From Rhodocytophaga rosea (GTDB taxonomy: Bacteria; Bacteroidota; Bacteroidia; Cytophagales; 172606-1): a stretch of DNA of 64,000 nt. Under the pieces are notes generated by a model. It was not told the origin of the DNA. It saw nothing but the letters and a program-made list of their open reading frames with translations, and made no database searches. Location: positions 3,366,501 through 3,430,500 of the forward strand of contig NZ_CP048222.1 of assembly GCF_010119975.1 (NCBI RefSeq). The letters are read 5' to 3'. Each line of letters opens with the position of its first letter. Position 1 is the first letter of the stretch. The translations under genes were made by a program, and so were the position numbers. Below, piece after piece: positions 55,100 through 64,000 of the stretch.

Positions 55100-55846
55100 A
55101 TGGTTATTGCACTGGTTAATCAAAAAGGGGGCACTGGTAAAACAAGCTCTGCAGTAAACCTTGGAAGTGCGTTAGCCAGCTTACATAAAAAGATTCTGGT
55201 CGTTGACCTCGATCCACAGGGAAGCCTGACTTTTTCATTGGGTATACATAATACAAGCCAATCTCTGGCCTCTTTATTTTTAAATGAAGCAAGTGCAGAA
55301 GAGGTAATGGTAAGTAGAGAAGAAATGGATGTGATACCAGCTGATATTAGGCTGGCTGATATCGAAATAAGTTTATCACAATCGGCAGAAAGGGCATTTT
55401 TTCTGAGAAATATCCTCAGTAATCTTCCTCATTACGACCATATTCTGATTGACTGTCCGCCTTCGCTATCGTTGCTTACCATTAATGCGCTAACTGCAGC
55501 TAATCAGGTGATTATACCTTTACAAATGGAAGTGTTGAGTATAAAAGGCTTACATCAAATATTACAAACTGTTGAAAAAGTGAATCTGGCTTTTCAACAC
55601 CAGCTGCAAATACTGGGTGTATTGCCGGTAATGATAGACAGCCGAAAAAATCTGAATGGGGAAGTACTCAGCTATATTAAGCAACATTACCCGGTAAACT
55701 TATTTCAAACGCATATCCGCACCAATGTAAAAGCCTCTGAAGCACCTTCGTTCGGAAAAAGTGTAATCGCTTATGCCCCACAATCTAATAGTGCCAGGGA
55801 TTATATGGCGCTTGCCAGTGAAATTGTCAATCTACATCATAATTAA
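55100..55846 (+). CDS. parA: ParA/Soj family ATPase of the chemosensory operon
   Basis: 248 residues. Deviant Walker A QKGGTGKTSSAVN (about 8-20) with the signature Lys, Walker A' LVVDLDPQGSLT (about 33-44), Walker B ILIDCPPSLSLLT (about 115-127). No ParB partner or parS-like site is nearby, and the next gene, 26 bp away, is a chemoreceptor, so this is not a chromosome or plasmid partition system. ParA-type ATPases position chemosensory arrays: PpfA of Rhodobacter sphaeroides for cytoplasmic clusters, ParC of Vibrio for polar ones. By analogy it should distribute the soluble array encoded downstream (inference). Confidence 0.9.
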   Translation: MVIALVNQKGGTGKTSSAVNLGSALASLHKKILVVDLDPQGSLTFSLGIHNTSQSLASLFLNEASAEEVMVSREEMDVIPADIRLADIEISLSQSAERAFFLRNILSNLPHYDHILIDCPPSLSLLTINALTAANQVIIPLQMEVLSIKGLHQILQTVEKVNLAFQHQLQILGVLPVMIDSRKNLNGEVLSYIKQHYPVNLFQTHIRTNVKASEAPSFGKSVIAYAPQSNSARDYMALASEIVNLHHN

Positions 55847-55872
55847 TTCAGAACTATTAAAATAATATCTGT

Positions 55873-58800
55873 ATGGCTTTAGGTAATAATATCAAAAAGG
55901 ACCAGTTGATTCCTGCCAATAATCAACCAGAAACGAAAAAGGGTGCAAAAAACAGCATGAAATCTTCGGTAAGTGTAGATGATCAATACTCGCAGATTCT
56001 GGAGGCCCTCAGCAAATCGCAGGCAGTTATTGAGTTCAACATGGATGGAACTGTTATTACAGCCAATGAAAATTTTCTGAATCTGCTTGGATATACACTC
56101 GCCGATGTAAAAGGTAAACATCACCGGATATTTTGCCAGGAAAACTATAGTAACAGTACGGCTTATAAAAAATTCTGGGAAAACTTAAATAAAGGCAGAT
56201 TTGATGCTGCCCAGTATAAGCGAATAGGTAAAGACGGAAAAGAAATATGGATTCAGGCAACCTACAATCCAATTTTGGATGGATCAGGAAAACCTTATAA
56301 AGTGGTAAAGTTTGCTACAGATATTACTGAGCAGAAAAAAATGGAGGCCGAAATTAATGAAGCCTCCGGACAATTAAAACGACAAGAAGCAGACTTGCAG
56401 CAGAACATGGAAAAACTGCAGGATATTCAGGAGGATATGAAACAAATCATTCGGGAATCTCAGGCTAAAGAACAGTATCTGAACGACCTGATCAATGTTT
56501 CTAAAGACTCTATTTTTACAGTAGACAGAGAATATAAAATAATTAGTTTTAATGAGACTTTAAAACATTCTTATACAAGTCTGGGCATAGATCTTCAGAA
56601 AGGGACTGACATGCTTCAAATCCTGGGTGAAGAAGAAAGAATCAAACTCATTGTTAATTATCAGAAAGCTTTTCAGGGGGAAACCATAGAAGTTACGCAG
56701 AGTTTTTCAACGAATAATGTTGAAAGCCATTATTTAATGACTTATAGTCCATTGCGTAATGAAAATGGAGACATAATAGCAGCAGCAGTATTCTCTAAAG
56801 ATATTTCTGCTTTGGTACAAGCTCAGAAGCAAGCTGAAAGTTTATTGAAGGAAGCCAGGCAACAGGCTGAAGAAATGAAAGCCCAGGAGGAAGAATTGCG
56901 GCAGAATATGGAAGAGGTACAAGCTACTCAGGACGAAATGGCCCGCAAACAAATTGAGTTAGATGGCCAGATTGCTGCGCTGAACAATGCAGCCATTGTA
57001 TCTGAAGTAGATTTGAAAGGCCATATTCTTGCCGTAAACGACGAGTTCTGCCGGTTAGCTAAATACACCAGAGAAGAACTCATTGGCCAGAAGCAAAGTA
57101 TAGTGCGCCACCCAGATATGCCAGGTGCTGTTTTCGATGATTTGTGGGCAACCATTACCAAAGGCAAAGTATGGAGAGGCGAAGTAAAGAACAGAGCCAA
57201 AGACGGTTCGCACTACTGGGTAGCCGCTACCATTACTCCGGTGCTCAATGAAAACGGCAGGCCGGTTAAGTACATCGGTGTTCGTTTCGATATCACGGCT
57301 CAAAAAGAACAGGAAGAAGAAATTAAGCGGAATATGCAGGAAATGGCCCGCAAACAAATTGAGTTAGATGGACAAATGGCAGCCTTGAATAATGCAGCCA
57401 TTGTATCTGAGGTAGATTTGAAAGGCAACATATTAGCCGTAAACGATGAGTTCTGCCGGTTAGCTAAATACACCAGAGAAGAACTCATTGGCCAGAAGCA
57501 AAGTATAGTGCGCCACCCAGATATGCCAAGTGCTGTTTTCGATGATCTGTGGGCAACCATTACCAAAGGCAAGGTATGGAGAGGCGAAGTGAAGAATCGG
57601 GCTAAAGATGGTTCTCATTATTGGGTAGCCGCTACCATTACCCCTGTGTTGAATGAAAACGGCAGGCCGGTTAAGTACATCGGTGTTCGTTTCGATACTA
57701 CTGCTCAAAAAGAACAAGAGGTAAAAATTAAGGATAATGTAGAGCAGATGCAAAAAGCGGTAGATATGCAAAAAGCAAATCTGCTTGGCTTTGAACAGGC
57801 TACCAAATTTATCCAGGAGCTTACTATAGGTAATTTCAATTCGCAGATGAATGTAGCAGGCCTGGAAATTGATGAAAATGTATCAGGAGTGATTAGTAAT
57901 CTGAATTCATTACGAAATACACTAAAAGAGATCATAAGTGAAGTAAATCAGGTAGTTAAACTCGCCGGCGAAGAAGGTAAACTGAATGCCCGTTTGAATG
58001 TAAAAGAAAACAAAGGCGAGTGGAAAGTATTACTCGACTCTATGAACCTGTTATTGGCTTCTATTTCCGAACCGGTTCTTGAATTTAATTCGATCATTGC
58101 TGAAATGGCCAAGGGAGACCTCACCAACAAATTCCAGATGAAGGTGAACGGAGATATTCTTAATATGGCTAGTTCGCTCAATACAGCTATTACTAACCTG
58201 AGTGACTTGCTAAGTACGATTGGATTGAGTTCAGATGTAGTAGCAGATTCATCTAAAGGCATGATGAAAAAGAGCGAAAGCATGAAGAATAATACAACTG
58301 AAGTAGCTTCTGCTATTTCGCAAATGGCTAAAGGCGCCCAGGAACAAGCTATTAAAACAGATGCCTCTTCTAAACTTGTGGAGGAAGTATTAAGATCTGC
58401 CAATACGATGGAACAGAAAGCCAATGTGATTAATAAAGCGGCTGAAAAAGGGCAGAAAGGCTCAGAAGATGGACTAAAAATCGTAAAACGACTGGTAGAA
58501 AACATGGGTGAAATCGGGGAATCTGCCAAGAAAACGTCTGGTTCGATTGATATTCTTACCCAGCGTGCGGAAGAGATTGCCAGAACCCTGAATGTAATTA
58601 CAGATATTGCAGCTCAAACTAATTTACTGGCACTGAATGCGGCCATTGAAGCTGCCAGAGCTGGAGATGCAGGCAGAGGTTTTGCCGTAGTAGCTGAAGA
58701 GATCCGGAAGCTGGCGGAAGATTCCAGAAGGTCGGCAGTAGATATTGAGAAGATCATTAAAGATGTACAGAAGGATACACTGGCAGCCGGTAAAGCCATA

Positions 58801-59139
58801 GAAACCATGCATTCAAGTGTAAAAATGGGGGATAATGCTTCCAAAGAGGCCGAATCTATTTTCCAGGAAATTGCCAAGTCGAGCAATGAAACCTTTAGTT
58901 TCTCCAAGGAAATTCAGGAAGCTACTTCTGAACAGAAATCTTCTATCAGTGCGGTGGTGAAAAACATTGAGCAAATAGTAGTGGTAGCTGAAGAAACAGC
59001 AGCCGGTACACAGCAGGTAGCCAGTTCCTCTCAACAGTTGAACCAGGGTATGAATGATATTACCGAGGCAAGTGCCAAGTTATCGCAGGTAGCCGCTGAA
59101 TTACAGACAGGTGTAAGCAAATTTAAACTAAAAAAGTAA
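55873..59139 (+). CDS. Soluble methyl-accepting chemotaxis protein with four PAS domains
   Basis: 1088 residues with no transmembrane segment or signal peptide. PAS1 about 35-155, PAS2 about 195-320, a coiled coil ([22 protein letters not shown] in part), PAS3 about 365-485, PAS4 about 500-620. PAS3 and PAS4 are nearly identical and are the Aer type ([19 protein letters not shown], [15 protein letters not shown]). A HAMP-like stretch (about 640-790) follows, then the signalling hairpin with tip [20 protein letters not shown] (about 912-931) and [20 protein letters not shown]. No C-terminal pentapeptide for CheR docking. It should sense an intracellular cue such as redox state or a small ligand and signal to the CheW/CheA encoded downstream. 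Confidence 0.93.
56941..57750 (+). repeat. In-frame tandem duplication of a PAS module, period 405 bp
   Basis: The copy starting at 56941 (GCCCGCAAACAAATTGAG) recurs at 57346. The unit is 135 codons long and covers a short coiled coil plus a whole PAS domain. The DNA of the two copies is almost the same over long stretches, so the duplication is recent or kept alike by gene conversion. The second copy differs in a few codons, for example D-M-P-S for D-M-P-G and G-N-I for G-H-I. Confidence 0.9.
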
Positions 59140-59157
59140 GCGATTGACTTAAGCAAT

Positions 59158-59241
59158 GGTATCAGGCCTCTTCCAGTACAAAAAGAGTCCTGATACCAAT
59201 AGCTAAAATTTAGCTTCATACCAATGAATGAATTATTCATT
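59158..59241 (+). promoter_or_regulatory. Cluster of three inverted repeats between the chemoreceptor and cheW
   Basis: First hairpin: GGTATCAGG-C-CTCTT with AAGAG-T-CCTGATACC (59158-59197), 14 pairs with one internal mismatch. Second: AGCTAAA-A-TTTAGCT (59201-59215). Third: AATGAAT with ATTCATT (59223-59241). None is followed by a T-run. They fill most of the 118-bp gap and may act as a processing or partial termination signal that lowers cheW and later genes relative to the receptor. Confidence 0.55.
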
Positions 59242-59257
59242 TAACTAGAGCGGAATT

Positions 59258-59782
59258 ATGGAAATCAAAGAAGAAGGTATAGTCACAAAGGCAAGTTCAC
59301 ATAAAGAGAATGAAAAGTTTAACCGGCATCAACTTATTGTTTTTAAACAAGGCAATGAGGAGTATGGCCTGGCAATAGATCAGATTAAGGAAGTAGTGCT
59401 AACCCCAAAAATTACAAAAATGCCGCAGACACCGCATTATGTGAAAGGAGTAGCTAACATCCGGGGAAATATCATTGCCATCATTGATCTGGAAGAAAAG
59501 TTTGGTATCACTGACAAAAATACAGAAATCAATACTGAAGGAAAGTATACCCTGGTAGTTGCCAGCGAAGAGTTTAAGGTAGGTATTCTGGTAAAGGAAG
59601 TACCTAATACTCTGGCTGTTTCTCAATCAGATATTGATGAAACTGTTAATATAATTCAGGATGAAATACAGGAGAGTAATTATATCAAAGGAATTGTAAA
59701 AGTAAATAACCGGCTGATCATTCTGATTGATATCTATCAAATTATGAGCAAACAAGAGTTAAACCAGGTAATCCGGAAATAA
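59258..59782 (+). CDS. cheW: CheW-type coupling protein
   Basis: 174 residues, one CheW domain from about residue 25. Core motifs: VFKQGNEEYGLAIDQIKEVV, KMPQTPHYVKGVANIRGNIIAIIDLEEKFG in two parts (PxxPxYVKGVANIRG is the typical CheW turn), and VNNRLIILIDIYQIMSK at the end. A 20-residue charged N-terminal extension precedes the domain. It links the receptor to CheA in the array. Spacing to cheD is 20 bp, so the genes are co-translated or co-transcribed. Confidence 0.95.
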   Translation: MEIKEEGIVTKASSHKENEKFNRHQLIVFKQGNEEYGLAIDQIKEVVLTPKITKMPQTPHYVKGVANIRGNIIAIIDLEEKFGITDKNTEINTEGKYTLVVASEEFKVGILVKEVPNTLAVSQSDIDETVNIIQDEIQESNYIKGIVKVNNRLIILIDIYQIMSKQELNQVIRK

Positions 59783-59802
59783 GGCATATTAAGTTGTTTG
59801 AT

Positions 59803-60297
59803 ATGAATCTGACTAGCGGAGAAAATACAATCAGAGAATTTGTGCTGCAAATGGGAGATATAAAAGTATCTGCTGGGTCAGGTATTTTTACCTGTTTTGG
59901 CCTTGGTTCTTGCGTAGGTTTATTTCTGCATGATAGAGTTCATAAGATTGGCGGTGGCGCTCACATTATGTTTCCTGATTATCATGCCCGTACCGTGATA
60001 CAGGCAAAATCCTACTATGCTGAACCTGCTATCGAAGAAGTGCTTAAGCAGATGAAAGAGGCTGGTGCTGATCTTGAAAAGCTCCGGGCAAAATTAGTAG
60101 GAGGTGCACAAGTAATGGATGCCAAACTATTGGACATGGGTTTTCAAAACACGCATGCTATAAGAAACGCTTTAACCAGGTATAAAATTTATATCGCTGC
60201 TGCGGATTTAGGAGGATATACCAGCCGGACAGCCAGATTCAAAATCGCCGATGGAAGCCTGTCAGTAACCTCACAAACAAATACATATATAATTTAA
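59803..60297 (+). CDS. cheD: Chemoreceptor glutamine deamidase CheD
   Basis: 164 residues from ATG 59803; a TTG three codons upstream is less likely. The catalytic Cys37 is in FGLGSCVGLFLHD and His54 in GGGAHIMFPD, the CheD dyad, with the conserved Thr/Ser region in LVGGAQVMDAKL and THAIRNAL further on. CheD deamidates glutamines on the receptor helices and adjusts adaptation. Its presence suggests that the soluble receptor is under adaptational control together with CheB and CheR of the same operon. Confidence 0.94.
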   Translation: MNLTSGENTIREFVLQMGDIKVSAGSGIFTCFGLGSCVGLFLHDRVHKIGGGAHIMFPDYHARTVIQAKSYYAEPAIEEVLKQMKEAGADLEKLRAKLVGGAQVMDAKLLDMGFQNTHAIRNALTRYKIYIAAADLGGYTSRTARFKIADGSLSVTSQTNTYII

Positions 60298-60317
60298 TCA
60301 ATTTAATTCGAATCAGC

Positions 60318-60683
60318 ATGGCAAAAAATGTTTTAATCGTAGATGATTCTCTTTTTATGAGAGCTGTGATCAAAGATGCACTGGAAAAGGCAGGATACCA
60401 GGTAGTAGGCGAAGCAGCCACAGGTGAAGCAGCTATTGATCTGGCTCTGGAACTCAACCCGGATGTGGTAACGCTTGATAACATTCTGCCGGATATGGTA
60501 GGCACAGATATACTAAAAGTATATAAGCAGGAAAAACTTCCGGCCAAAGTGATTCTCATCAGCGCTGTAGGTCAGGAGTCGGTAATTGAAGAAGGGATGA
60601 GCCTGGGAGCCAGTGCTTACATTGTAAAACCTTTTACATCAGAGCAGCTGGTGCAGTCTATCGAAAAATCATTTACCAGTTAA
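60318..60683 (+). CDS. cheY: CheY-type single-domain response regulator
   Basis: 121 residues, one receiver domain. Acidic pocket D9-D10 in IVDDSLFMR, phospho-acceptor Asp54 in VTLDNILPDM, the Ser of ILISAVGQ and the Lys of AYIVKPFTS. It receives phosphate from CheA. With no flagellar genes visible it could act on gliding, pili or another output. It lies 20 bp after cheD and 16 bp before cheB. Confidence 0.94.
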   Translation: MAKNVLIVDDSLFMRAVIKDALEKAGYQVVGEAATGEAAIDLALELNPDVVTLDNILPDMVGTDILKVYKQEKLPAKVILISAVGQESVIEEGMSLGASAYIVKPFTSEQLVQSIEKSFTS

Positions 60684-60699
60684 ATAATCCCTTATCCTA

Positions 60700-61737
60700 G
60701 TGTCCGGTAAAATAAAAGTATTGTTGATTGAAGATTCCGGGCTGATGCGTCTGATTATCTCTGATATTTTGCGGACAGATAAAGACATAGAAATTGTAGA
60801 TACAGCAGAAAATGGCAAAGATGGGGTAGAAAAAACGCTGAAGCATACACCTGATGTGGTGGTTACCGACTTAGTAATGCCATATTATGATGGAGTATAT
60901 GCTGTAAAGCACATCATGAAACAGAAGCCTACACCCATTGTAGTGCTTAGCAGCCTTGGTAAAGCCGATCCGATAGTATTTGATGCTTTAAAAGAAGGTG
61001 CCGTCGATTTTATAGACAAACCCAAAGAAAAGGTAATTTCTAATATACGTGACGTAAATCATGTGCTGATAGAGGCAGTAAAAGCAGCTCAGAAAGCAAA
61101 TGTTATGGCTTTACCCAAGCAGGATAAAACTATTACTCATGTCCATACTTTTGATACGCAGCTCAATTACGACGTAATAGCCATGGGTGCTTCTACCGGT
61201 GGCCCGGGTGCTGTGGAAAAAGTAATAGATAAATTACCGGCTAATTTGTCCATACCAGTGGTGATTGCCCAGCATATGCCGGAGCGTTTTCTGGAATCGT
61301 TTGCTAAAAGGCTGGATATACTGACACCATTGAAGGTTAAACTTGCTGAAAAAGGCGAGCTTCTCACTGGCGGAACAGTATATATTGTTCCGGGTAATAG
61401 CAATACCAAAGTAGGACGGGATGCTTTTACAGGTAAAATAACTTTCTCCTTTACCAAACGTGAGTTTAGGGAATTTAACTATCCTTCGGTTGATTGCTTG
61501 TTTTTATCAATTGCAGAAACCTATGCCAGCAAAGCCATTGGTGTTATTCTCACTGGCATGGGAAAAGATGGCACAGAAGGAATGAAAGCTATTTACGAAG
61601 CTGGTGGTTATACCATTGCCCAGGATGAGGCGTCGTCAGTAGTATACGGTATGCCCAAAAGCGCTCTTGAAAGTGGTGTGATAAAAAAATCTGTTCCCAT
61701 ATACGACATTTCCTCTTTTATTATCGGATGTCTGTAG
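60700..61737 (+). CDS. cheB: Chemotaxis protein-glutamate methylesterase CheB
   Basis: 345 residues starting at GTG. Receiver domain about 5-125 with E11-D12 and phospho-acceptor Asp57 in VVVTDLVMPYYDG. Methylesterase domain about 155-340 with the catalytic Ser165 in GASTGGPGAVEKV, His in IAQHMPERF and Asp in LTGMGKDGTEGMK. It removes methyl groups from receptor glutamates and can itself be phosphorylated by CheA. It follows cheY by 16 bp and precedes cheA by 16 bp. Confidence 0.95.
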   Translation: MSGKIKVLLIEDSGLMRLIISDILRTDKDIEIVDTAENGKDGVEKTLKHTPDVVVTDLVMPYYDGVYAVKHIMKQKPTPIVVLSSLGKADPIVFDALKEGAVDFIDKPKEKVISNIRDVNHVLIEAVKAAQKANVMALPKQDKTITHVHTFDTQLNYDVIAMGASTGGPGAVEKVIDKLPANLSIPVVIAQHMPERFLESFAKRLDILTPLKVKLAEKGELLTGGTVYIVPGNSNTKVGRDAFTGKITFSFTKREFREFNYPSVDCLFLSIAETYASKAIGVILTGMGKDGTEGMKAIYEAGGYTIAQDEASSVVYGMPKSALESGVIKKSVPIYDISSFIIGCL

Positions 61738-61753
61738 TTTAAATTTTCATTAT

Positions 61754-63646
61754 ATGGATTCCAAAGAAGAAGAATACAGGGAAATATTTCTGGCCGAAGC
61801 CCTAGAAAATTATGAAGAGCTCAACCGCCTGATAACAGAACTGGAAAAAAATACTTCCAACAAGAATGCTATCAATGCAATTTTCCGGATTACCCATACC
61901 CTTAAAGGAAATGCGGCCGGAATGGGCTTTGAAGATATTACTAAAATGTCGCATACGCTGGAGGACTTATTTGTAGAAATCCGGGAGGGTAAATTGCAGG
62001 TAGATGCAGCTATTTTTACAGATATATTTAAAGCCATAGATACACTTGGCGCTTTGATCGATGCCCTCAAAACTGGAAAAACAGTTCGCTACCTGGGTAT
62101 CAAAACCAAGCTGGAAGTTATTTTGAAAAAAGCCGCTGAAGCTGGCATGCCATTATCCACCAATGATAATCACGATTCTCAGAAGAAAAACACAGATCAA
62201 AATCAAATAAAGCAGCAGGTTGAAAATACAATTCCTAATGAAGACCGAGTTGTTAACAATGAACCTGAAAAAATAGCCACAGAAATAGCATCAGATCCAT
62301 TAAATCAGCAAGTGCTGGAAAATACCCAGGCATTATTAGATGATATTTTTGCTGCTAAAGAAATTTTGACCTCTGAAAAATCAGCTGAAGCAGATACGGT
62401 AGACACCAAACTTACTTTCTCTGACCTGGTGCAAGTGCCGGTAAAAAAACTGGATAACCTGCTTAATCTGGTAAGTGAGCTTACCATAGAACGGGACCGG
62501 ATTATAGCCATGAATTCCAATGGATTTAGCCGCAATGAATATTCCCGTTTGCAAAGAATATCCTCAGACCTGCAATATTCTGTGATGGATGTACGCCTGG
62601 TGCAGGTGGGGTTTCTATTCAATAAATTCCATAGAGTAGTCAGGGATGCAGCCGCTCTGGAACACAAAAAAGTAACTCTTAAACTTGAAGGCACCGATGC
62701 TGAGATTGACCGGAATGTCCTGCAAATTATTAGCGATTCTCTTATTCACTTAATCCGCAATTCGGTTGGGCATGGTATTGAAACGCCTGAGGAACGCAAA
62801 AAGGCAGGCAAATCAGAAACTGGTACCGTTACTTTGCGTGCCAGCAACGAGAGTGATGCAGTTATAATAGAAATTATAGATGATGGGAAAGGCATTGACT
62901 CCCGCATTATCAAAAAGAAAGCCATTGACAAAGGACTTGTTTCCAAAGAAACAGCCGATACCATGTCGGAGGCAGATATTATCATGTTCATTTTTGAGCC
63001 TGGTTTTTCGAGTGCTGAGCAGGTTACAGCTATTTCGGGGCGTGGCGTTGGTATGGATGTAGTAAAGCGGGCGCTGGACTCTATTAGCGGCAATATAAGC
63101 GTATTTACAGCTGTTGGCAAAGGTTCTACCATCAGATTATCGCTGCCCTCTTCTATGGCTGTTAAAGGAACTTTATTGTTTGAACTGGATAAATCGGAAT
63201 ATGCTATTCCACTTACCTATACGGAGGCAGTCGTTTCGTTATATAAATCTGATGTGCATAAAGCTGGTAATGGGCTCATTGCCACACATCTGGGTAAAAC
63301 TATTTCCATTGTTTTCCTCAAAGATTTGTTTTCTACAGCAGATTATTCACACCATTCGCAGAACACTATTTTCCACACCAGCTTCGATCAGGTTAATGCC
63401 AAAGAAAAACTGGCCATTATTATTGTTTCCTATAACAACCGCAAAGTAGGATTTGTGGTAGATAAACTTCTGCAACAAAAAGAAATTGTTGAAAAACCAT
63501 TGATGAAGCCTGTAGATCATGTAAAATTTATCAGTGGGGTAACTATTCTGGGAAATGGAAATATCTGCCTGGTGCTCAACATTGCCAATATTATCAGTTA
63601 TATTTTTAAAATCAGCAATACAATTGCCGGTAAAGCCCTCTGTTGA
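61754..63646 (+). CDS. cheA: Chemotaxis histidine kinase CheA lacking a clear P2 domain
   Basis: 630 residues. P1/HPt about 1-125 with the phospho-acceptor His48 in ITHTLKGNAAGMG. Then a low-complexity, Gln/Asn/Glu-rich linker (about 138-215) where P2 would be; no P2 fold is recognisable. P3 dimerisation about 218-285 (VQVPVKKLDNLLNLVSELTI), P4 ATPase about 290-475 with N-box HLIRNSVGHGIE (Asp replaced by Gly in the usual N-x-x-D-H), G1 DDGKGID and G2 GRGVGMDVVK. P5 CheW-like about 480-630. It autophosphorylates and feeds CheY and CheB. CheR follows. Confidence 0.94.
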   Translation: MDSKEEEYREIFLAEALENYEELNRLITELEKNTSNKNAINAIFRITHTLKGNAAGMGFEDITKMSHTLEDLFVEIREGKLQVDAAIFTDIFKAIDTLGALIDALKTGKTVRYLGIKTKLEVILKKAAEAGMPLSTNDNHDSQKKNTDQNQIKQQVENTIPNEDRVVNNEPEKIATEIASDPLNQQVLENTQALLDDIFAAKEILTSEKSAEADTVDTKLTFSDLVQVPVKKLDNLLNLVSELTIERDRIIAMNSNGFSRNEYSRLQRISSDLQYSVMDVRLVQVGFLFNKFHRVVRDAAALEHKKVTLKLEGTDAEIDRNVLQIISDSLIHLIRNSVGHGIETPEERKKAGKSETGTVTLRASNESDAVIIEIIDDGKGIDSRIIKKKAIDKGLVSKETADTMSEADIIMFIFEPGFSSAEQVTAISGRGVGMDVVKRALDSISGNISVFTAVGKGSTIRLSLPSSMAVKGTLLFELDKSEYAIPLTYTEAVVSLYKSDVHKAGNGLIATHLGKTISIVFLKDLFSTADYSHHSQNTIFHTSFDQVNAKEKLAIIIVSYNNRKVGFVVDKLLQQKEIVEKPLMKPVDHVKFISGVTILGNGNICLVLNIANIISYIFKISNTIAGKALC

Positions 63647-63698
63647 TAGTAAAAAATCAAACTGACTTGCCGAAGAACTATTTTTTAATCTTACATAC

Positions 63699-64000
63699 GT
63701 GGTAGAGTTAACAAACGAAGAATTGAACTCTCTGAACAGGGTTATTCTCACCAGATATGGAATCGACTTTACCAGTTATGAAACCGGCTCATTTAAGCGG
63801 AGAGTAGCCAGGGCTATTTCTGTATTTAATCTTGAATCTGTGCATAGTTTGTGGGCGAAACTGCTCAAAGAAAGAGATTTTATCTATCCATTTATTGATG
63901 AACTTACAGTTGGTTTAACGGCCATGTTCCGTGACCCTATTTTATGGATTTCCCTTAAAAAAGTATTGCGTACCTATCATGAAAAAGATCCTATTCATAT
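63699..64000 (+). CDS. cheR: CheR methyltransferase, N-terminal part, cut by window edge
   Basis: About 100 residues are visible, from GTG 63699; the frame upstream reaches a stop with no ATG, so GTG is chosen. VELTNEELNSLNRVILTRYG and FKRRVARAI match the CheR N-terminal helical domain, and ELTVGLTAMFRDP is the junction to the methyltransferase domain, where most CheR proteins read FFRD. It would methylate receptor glutamates with S-adenosylmethionine. It lies 52 bp after cheA and continues past the right edge. Confidence 0.88.
   Translation, partial: MVELTNEELNSLNRVILTRYGIDFTSYETGSFKRRVARAISVFNLESVHSLWAKLLKERDFIYPFIDELTVGLTAMFRDPILWISLKKVLRTYHEKDPIH

Follow-up and report, generated by a model that had tools for sequence, protein, structure and literature searches.

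Operon and host genome

The window, a stretch of 64,000 nucleotides from the Rhodocytophaga rosea genome (one contig, 8,983,451 bases), closes with eight genes on the forward strand: parA, a chemoreceptor gene, cheW, cheD, cheY, cheB, cheA and cheR. Pfam matches bear out this set, its order and its single strand as an earlier, sequence-only reading had given them. parA (55100..55846) encodes a 248-aa member of a dedicated ParA clade with the Walker A motif QKGGTGKT (Pfam AAA_31, E 1.8e-52). The adjoining gene (55873..59139) encodes a soluble chemoreceptor of 1088 aa that comprises a short N-terminal tag, PAS at several places, HAMP_2 and MCPsignal (E 3.3e-39). The 14 codons of the tag (55873..55914) encode a proposed ParA-activating, or cargo, peptide, delimited by a pattern search, a logo of 39 proteins and a comparison with the ParB box. 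Two successive PAS repeats of this receptor are nearly identical by eye, and tagged receptors of relatives reach lengths of up to 2090 aa.

Downstream lie cheW (59258..59782; 174 aa, untagged; PF01584, E 5.8e-31), cheD (59794..60297; 167 aa; PF03975, E 1.2e-20), cheY (60318..60683; a stand-alone receiver of 121 aa; PF00072, E 5.3e-26), cheB (60700..61737; 345 aa, receiver and methylesterase by Pfam) and cheA (61754..63646; 630 aa with Hpt, H-kinase_dim, HATPase_c and CheW by Pfam, and no Pfam match to a receiver domain). The last gene, cheR (63699..64000; PF03705 on the in-window part), continues past the window end, its full ORF of 270 aa ending at about window position 64511 (L007 200-1012). 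Along the operon, the intergenic gaps measure 26, 118, 11, 20, 16, 16 and 52 bp, five of seven being shorter than 30 bp, as the earlier description of gaps mostly under that length implies. In relatives, a gene of about 200 aa with sub-threshold CheC matches lies 3′ of cheA (L037 12701-13363, L089 2315-2938, L022 10579-11181); it is absent between cheA and cheR of the window operon.

The receptor had also been described as devoid of transmembrane helices, and its highest 19-residue Kyte-Doolittle mean of 1.13 indeed predicts none. By the same measure, the other five MCPs of the genome peak at 2.58-2.84, and we regard them as membrane proteins. Altogether, six proteins contain MCP domains (two of the seven match rows fall in one frame), and the four CheW domains of the genome are spread over two che clusters, the second of which, at 4.01-4.03 Mb, has membrane receptors. 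The former claim of a self-contained cytoplasmic array thus keeps its cytoplasmic part, given the soluble receptor, but 'self-contained' is uncertain because of this second cluster. In the two second-cluster membrane receptors (L006 11104-12900, 14587-16263), the signalling region is seemingly identical by eye, suggesting recent duplication or gene conversion.

Two strong ParAs are encoded in the genome, one at 0.56 Mb and one in the window operon, in addition to five weaker AAA_31 matches. The ParA at 0.56 Mb adjoins a ParB with an N-terminal LGRG box (ALGRGLGALL); among the three ParB_N matches of the genome (0.25, 0.56 and 4.76 Mb), it is the only one with an adjoining ParA in the 3.3-kb stretches read. 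The operon's ParA differs from this chromosomal ParA, in keeping with the view that the array has a segregation-type ATPase of its own, and the gene next to it encodes the receptor, with no parB beside it. PpfA/TlpT-type ATPases have a deviant Walker A motif with a signature lysine, both of which the operon ParA possesses; its K9 and K14 are invariant in 12/12 aligned sequences. A parA homolog that adjoins a soluble receptor within a che operon is likewise the arrangement described for PpfA/TlpT of Rhodobacter sphaeroides (PMC3964821, PMC7993993).

The N-terminal tag and its ParA clade

The tag has the rough consensus MALGxN[IL]K[KR][DE][KR]LIP and occupies the extreme N-terminus of its carriers. 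At all 21 fetched loci with che genes beside a parA of the operon's type (window locus included), the next gene starts MALG[DKNE]N[ILMV][KN]. Across the 39 proteins of the logo, the M, A and G never vary, and L3, N6 and K8 are found in 37 each; K8 is followed mostly by [KRL][DESN][KR] and then by LIP or a shifted KLI; information falls past residue 14, and the downstream parts of the proteins differ. Two genomes, G070 and G041, encode the variant MASGKEIKRDRLIP. No earlier description of the tag was found in the open-access literature searched.

Written as LG[KDN]N[IL]KKxKLIP, the tag is alike to the ParB box LGKGLDALIP, the differences being an N in place of ParB's G and two extra residues ahead of LIP. 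The operon resembles the ParABS system (Soj/Spo0J) in the kind of ParA sequence and in the N-terminal box of the partner, which is LG[RK]G-like; unlike ParABS, the window parA has no adjoining ParB domain, and its cargo would be a protein array. A profile search of genome contigs with a ParA alignment provided 80 further loci among its listed matches (L117 and L118-L196). LG[RK]G occurs within the first 70 residues of 68/78 ORFs situated right after the other ParAs (L118-L196), and the tag in 0/78; a tag look-alike at L162 was set aside as a 45-aa frame. Among the matches listed, ParA and tag were found together only at L117, which belongs to a Chryseobacterium gleum MAG.

Across 291 genomes of the order, a degenerate DNA pattern of the tag gave 42 matches in 40 genomes, compared to two matches for the reversed control pattern. 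Clade-type ParA loci account for 31 of the 42, of which 30 lie within 350 bp past the end of the ParA match and the 31st marks a second CheW in L022. Of the remaining 11, three start receptors away from such loci: in G068 and G123 the ORF also contains an MCP domain, and in G147 a contig end truncates a PAS-like fragment. Seven others are short frames (8-39 residues), and the last, a frame of 469 aa bordering a contig edge (G144), was counted as unrelated. Viewed by genome, the tag is encoded in 36/36 order genomes with a clade ParA (two as the variant) and directly follows parA in 30 of them, the six unlinked genomes carrying it elsewhere (G068, G123, G079, G070, G018, G041). A real tag was found in one of the other 255 genomes, by a pattern that would miss variants such as MASGKEIK. 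This genome, G147 (570 contigs, 89% complete), has a single ParA match that begins like a chromosomal ParA, and no clade ParA was found in it. Clade assignment relied on a tree for the best-scoring ParA hits and on score for the rest, meaning that divergent members may be missed; Fisher's p of 2.6e-45 for tag versus clade ParA ignores relatedness and was set aside. In a sample of the phylum, the pattern occurs in 7/395 genomes, own genome included, and as read no array protein begins at any of the other six.

A quick tree built from 65 ParAs places those linked to a tag on one side of a branch (SH-aLRT 99); this side has 33 rows, 27 of which have the tag adjoining. These rows represent 32 order-sample genomes and L117; four genomes of genus g33 outside the tree (G209, G077, G142, G117), with a high-scoring ParA and an adjoining tagged receptor, raise the number of order genomes to 36. 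Fifteen scored positions set the clade ParAs (28 rows) apart from 82 others. Compared with solved structures, the clade profile scores 243 bits against 8ray (annotated 'ParA family protein'), 212-217 against Soj, 101 against MinD, 88 against McdA and 47-52 against FleN. Outside the tag clade, other ParAs at L052-L054 and L059 have short neighbours starting MAKKSFSGGLDSLLGG (L052, L054) or MAKKDFKGGISTLIKR (L059), which makes further ParA/adaptor pairs possible.

Operons lacking the clade ParA serve as natural controls. CheW domains occur in 101/291 order genomes, and 39 fetched che loci without an adjacent parA (L078-L116), several of which hold no receptor, gave no ParA match. In G040, which is of the same genus and lacks the clade ParA, the operon otherwise has the same order and the MCP domain of the receptor is 90% identical, and the receptor N-terminus reads MALTSKKKIDQ. 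Likewise, in genomes without a clade ParA, receptors of genus g14 start MASGKTTKN, MAPGKTTKN or MASPKTPQ and those of g107 start MALDKKENKE, MALEKKEQKE or MALGKNSQKE. Several of these untagged N-termini look like remnants of a tag, which points to a tag that decayed once parA had been lost, even though the tree fits gain or loss equally well. Since the tag sits at the extreme N-terminus of array proteins, it might instead be a feature of array assembly or translation start of receptors that is unrelated to ParA. Yet homologous receptors in the examined operons without clade parA are untagged, and the tag occurs on non-receptors beside clade parA, even in genomes without a CheW match; we therefore give this explanation hardly any credence.

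Independent contrasts between tag and ParA are few. A careful receptor tree of 59 rows, which leaves out L068 with its very long branch, contains seven, with tag and ParA together in 6-7 and opposite in 0 (p 0.016-0.031). Scoring the tag on receptors only, the two go together in 5-6/7 contrasts of the same tree (p 0.031-0.0625), and a quick tree with all 60 rows gives 5-6/6 (p 0.031-0.0625). For these counts, G154 and G203, whose receptor N-termini lie at or near contig ends, were scored untagged because the tag pattern is absent from both genomes, and G147 and G159, with tagged N-terminus and MCP domain on separate contigs, were each scored with the two parts together.

Other carriers of the tag

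The tag is also found on proteins other than soluble receptors. At L022, two CheW proteins carry it, one of them directly after parA, and the receptors, with hydrophobic maxima of 2.72 and 3.29, look membrane-bound, so that the system is not strictly bound to cytoplasmic arrays. Its neighbour in the receptor tree, L111, has no parA and the tag on neither CheW. At L117 (9998-16689), the genes accompanying that of the clade ParA encode a STAS-like protein with the tag, CheY, CheA, CheW and an MCP for which no TM helix is predicted. The carrier here, of 182 aa, matches STAS only weakly (Pfam E 0.017, which misses the cut-off), and it aligns with a counterpart in the second che cluster of the R. 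rosea genome at 28% over 85 residues (E 1e-10). The L117 CheA shows 47% identity to that of cluster 2 and 35% to that of cluster 1; given these resemblances of CheA and the STAS-like protein, L117 represents a different che system joined to a clade ParA. Its nearest receptor looks soluble (maximum 0.93), and another MCP further on reaches 2.56. Finally, in genus g25 (L030-L033, four genomes), the tag begins a protein of 215-216 aa encoded after clade parA; two of these proteins were scanned, and the PAS match of one exceeds the Pfam cut-off. CheW gave no match in these four genomes, none of which is among the 101 CheW-positive ones.

These carriers raise the idea that MALGxN[IL]K[KR][DE][KR]LIP is a portable cargo address of one dedicated ParA lineage, which may have moved between soluble receptors, CheW, STAS-like and PAS proteins; we regard the odds for and against as even. 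If true, signalling bodies of very unlike kinds, one of them not chemosensory, would depend on a single ParA type for their placement. N-terminal stretches that are positively charged and disordered are described as common among the partners of ParA/MinD ATPases, and grafting such a stretch onto an interaction domain can turn that domain into a partner (PMC7993993); a further account, in which the determinants are proposed from docking, characterizes the partner N-terminus in the same way (PMC10241942). The operon fits this pattern; beyond it, the tag sequence is nearly fixed and seems to have been grafted in nature.

The tagged CheWs of L022, lying in a parA locus with membrane-type receptors, resemble ParP, whose N-terminus is reported to bind ParC and whose C-terminus is CheW-like (PMC5706961). 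They speak for an alternative in which the ParA acts off the nucleoid and brings the array to a cell pole or some other landmark, with the tag as a recruitment handle. ParC/ParP of Vibrio and ParC of Halothiobacillus do share with the operon a ParA/MinD-family ATPase, described as needed for array placement; however, theirs are polar arrays in flagellated cells, and Vibrio uses the separate adaptor ParP (PMC5706961, PMC10241942). The window operon, by comparison, encodes no ParP-like protein, its only separate CheW (174 aa) is untagged, a polar flagellum is not indicated in the absence of an FlhA match, and the clade ParA profile is closest to 8ray and Soj. Polar or landmark recruitment consequently seems unlikely to us.

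Array positioning and output

We favour, with a probability of about three in four, the reading that the operon encodes a ParA-carried cytoplasmic chemosensory array in which the receptor tag activates ParA and thereby turns the array into a nucleoid cargo. The array would be built from the soluble PAS receptor, CheW and CheA, with CheR, CheB and CheD as adaptation enzymes and CheY as output regulator, and it would be positioned by the operon's own Soj-like ParA ATPase, which by homology is expected to bind the nucleoid as an ATP dimer. Each receptor tip would contribute one ParB-like peptide, giving the array very many copies, and these may stimulate ATP hydrolysis by nearby nucleoid-bound ParA. 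The array would thereby be transported and divided, with each daughter cell receiving a share, as has been proposed for PpfA/TlpT.

Several observations speak for this reading at the level of sequence: the genes themselves, the lack of TM helices and the conserved peptide, which resembles the ParB box, occurs in the sample almost only together with one ParA clade and is absent from the examined che operons without that ParA. The genes are ordinary; what is of interest is the tag, together with how closely it follows a single ParA clade. The earlier reading of the operon as a ParA-linked cytoplasmic array gains from the missing FlhA, the soluble receptor, the non-chromosomal ParA and the clade-tracking, ParB-like peptide, whereas contact between tag and ParA, ATPase stimulation, nucleoid binding and the positioning of foci are what we infer from these.

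In R. sphaeroides, PpfA is described as positioning the cytoplasmic cluster via the N-terminus of TlpT, which is proposed to stimulate the ATPase much as ParB does (PMC3964821, PMC7993993); the tag may be a counterpart of this N-terminus. Different from PpfA/TlpT are the present host, which lacks FlhA, and the peptide, which is nearly fixed across many genera in the sample and occurs on other proteins as well.

FrzCD of Myxococcus xanthus offers another precedent, being a soluble receptor whose basic tail is reported to bind the nucleoid DNA directly, and for which the authors suggest that a faithful partitioning system is unneeded (PMC5716589). FrzCD serves a gliding host and forms its array on the nucleoid, traits that the present operon would share. 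By analogy, the window receptor, soluble and with Lys in its N-terminus, could bind DNA by itself and leave its ParA another job. However, FrzCD tails are described as basic without a fixed sequence (PMC5716589), whereas the tag is nearly fixed, tracks a ParA clade and is also found on CheW, STAS-like and PAS proteins; moreover, averaged over 19 tagged receptors, the N-terminal 40 residues have a net charge of just +0.9, far from a strongly basic tail. On this charge, direct DNA binding by the N-terminus was set aside, and we consider a FrzCD-like arrangement very unlikely.

How each ParA-type ATPase recognizes its cargo is only partly understood. Here, a defined 14-residue candidate address, a matching ATPase clade, several carriers and sister operons with neither coexist, so that specificity could be tested by short-peptide swaps. 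The favoured reading, a tagged array carried by its own ParA, would also extend ParA-linked arrays to bacteria without flagella.

That the host is probably non-flagellated, and that the output is something other than flagella, had both been surmised from the window; no FlhA match in the 8.98-Mb single-contig genome agrees with either. FlhA was found in 0/38 genomes searched (the 36 clade genomes, own included, G040 and G147), and GldL of the T9SS/gliding motor in 37/38, G110 being the miss; GldL does not prove gliding, since it serves secretion too. Control of the T9SS/gliding motor by CheY is a plausible putative output, which we consider somewhat less likely than not. In Flavobacterium, the CheY-like domain of PorX is reported to bind GldL in a two-hybrid assay, and D54A to abolish this binding (PMC10951265), so that action of a CheY on this motor has a precedent.
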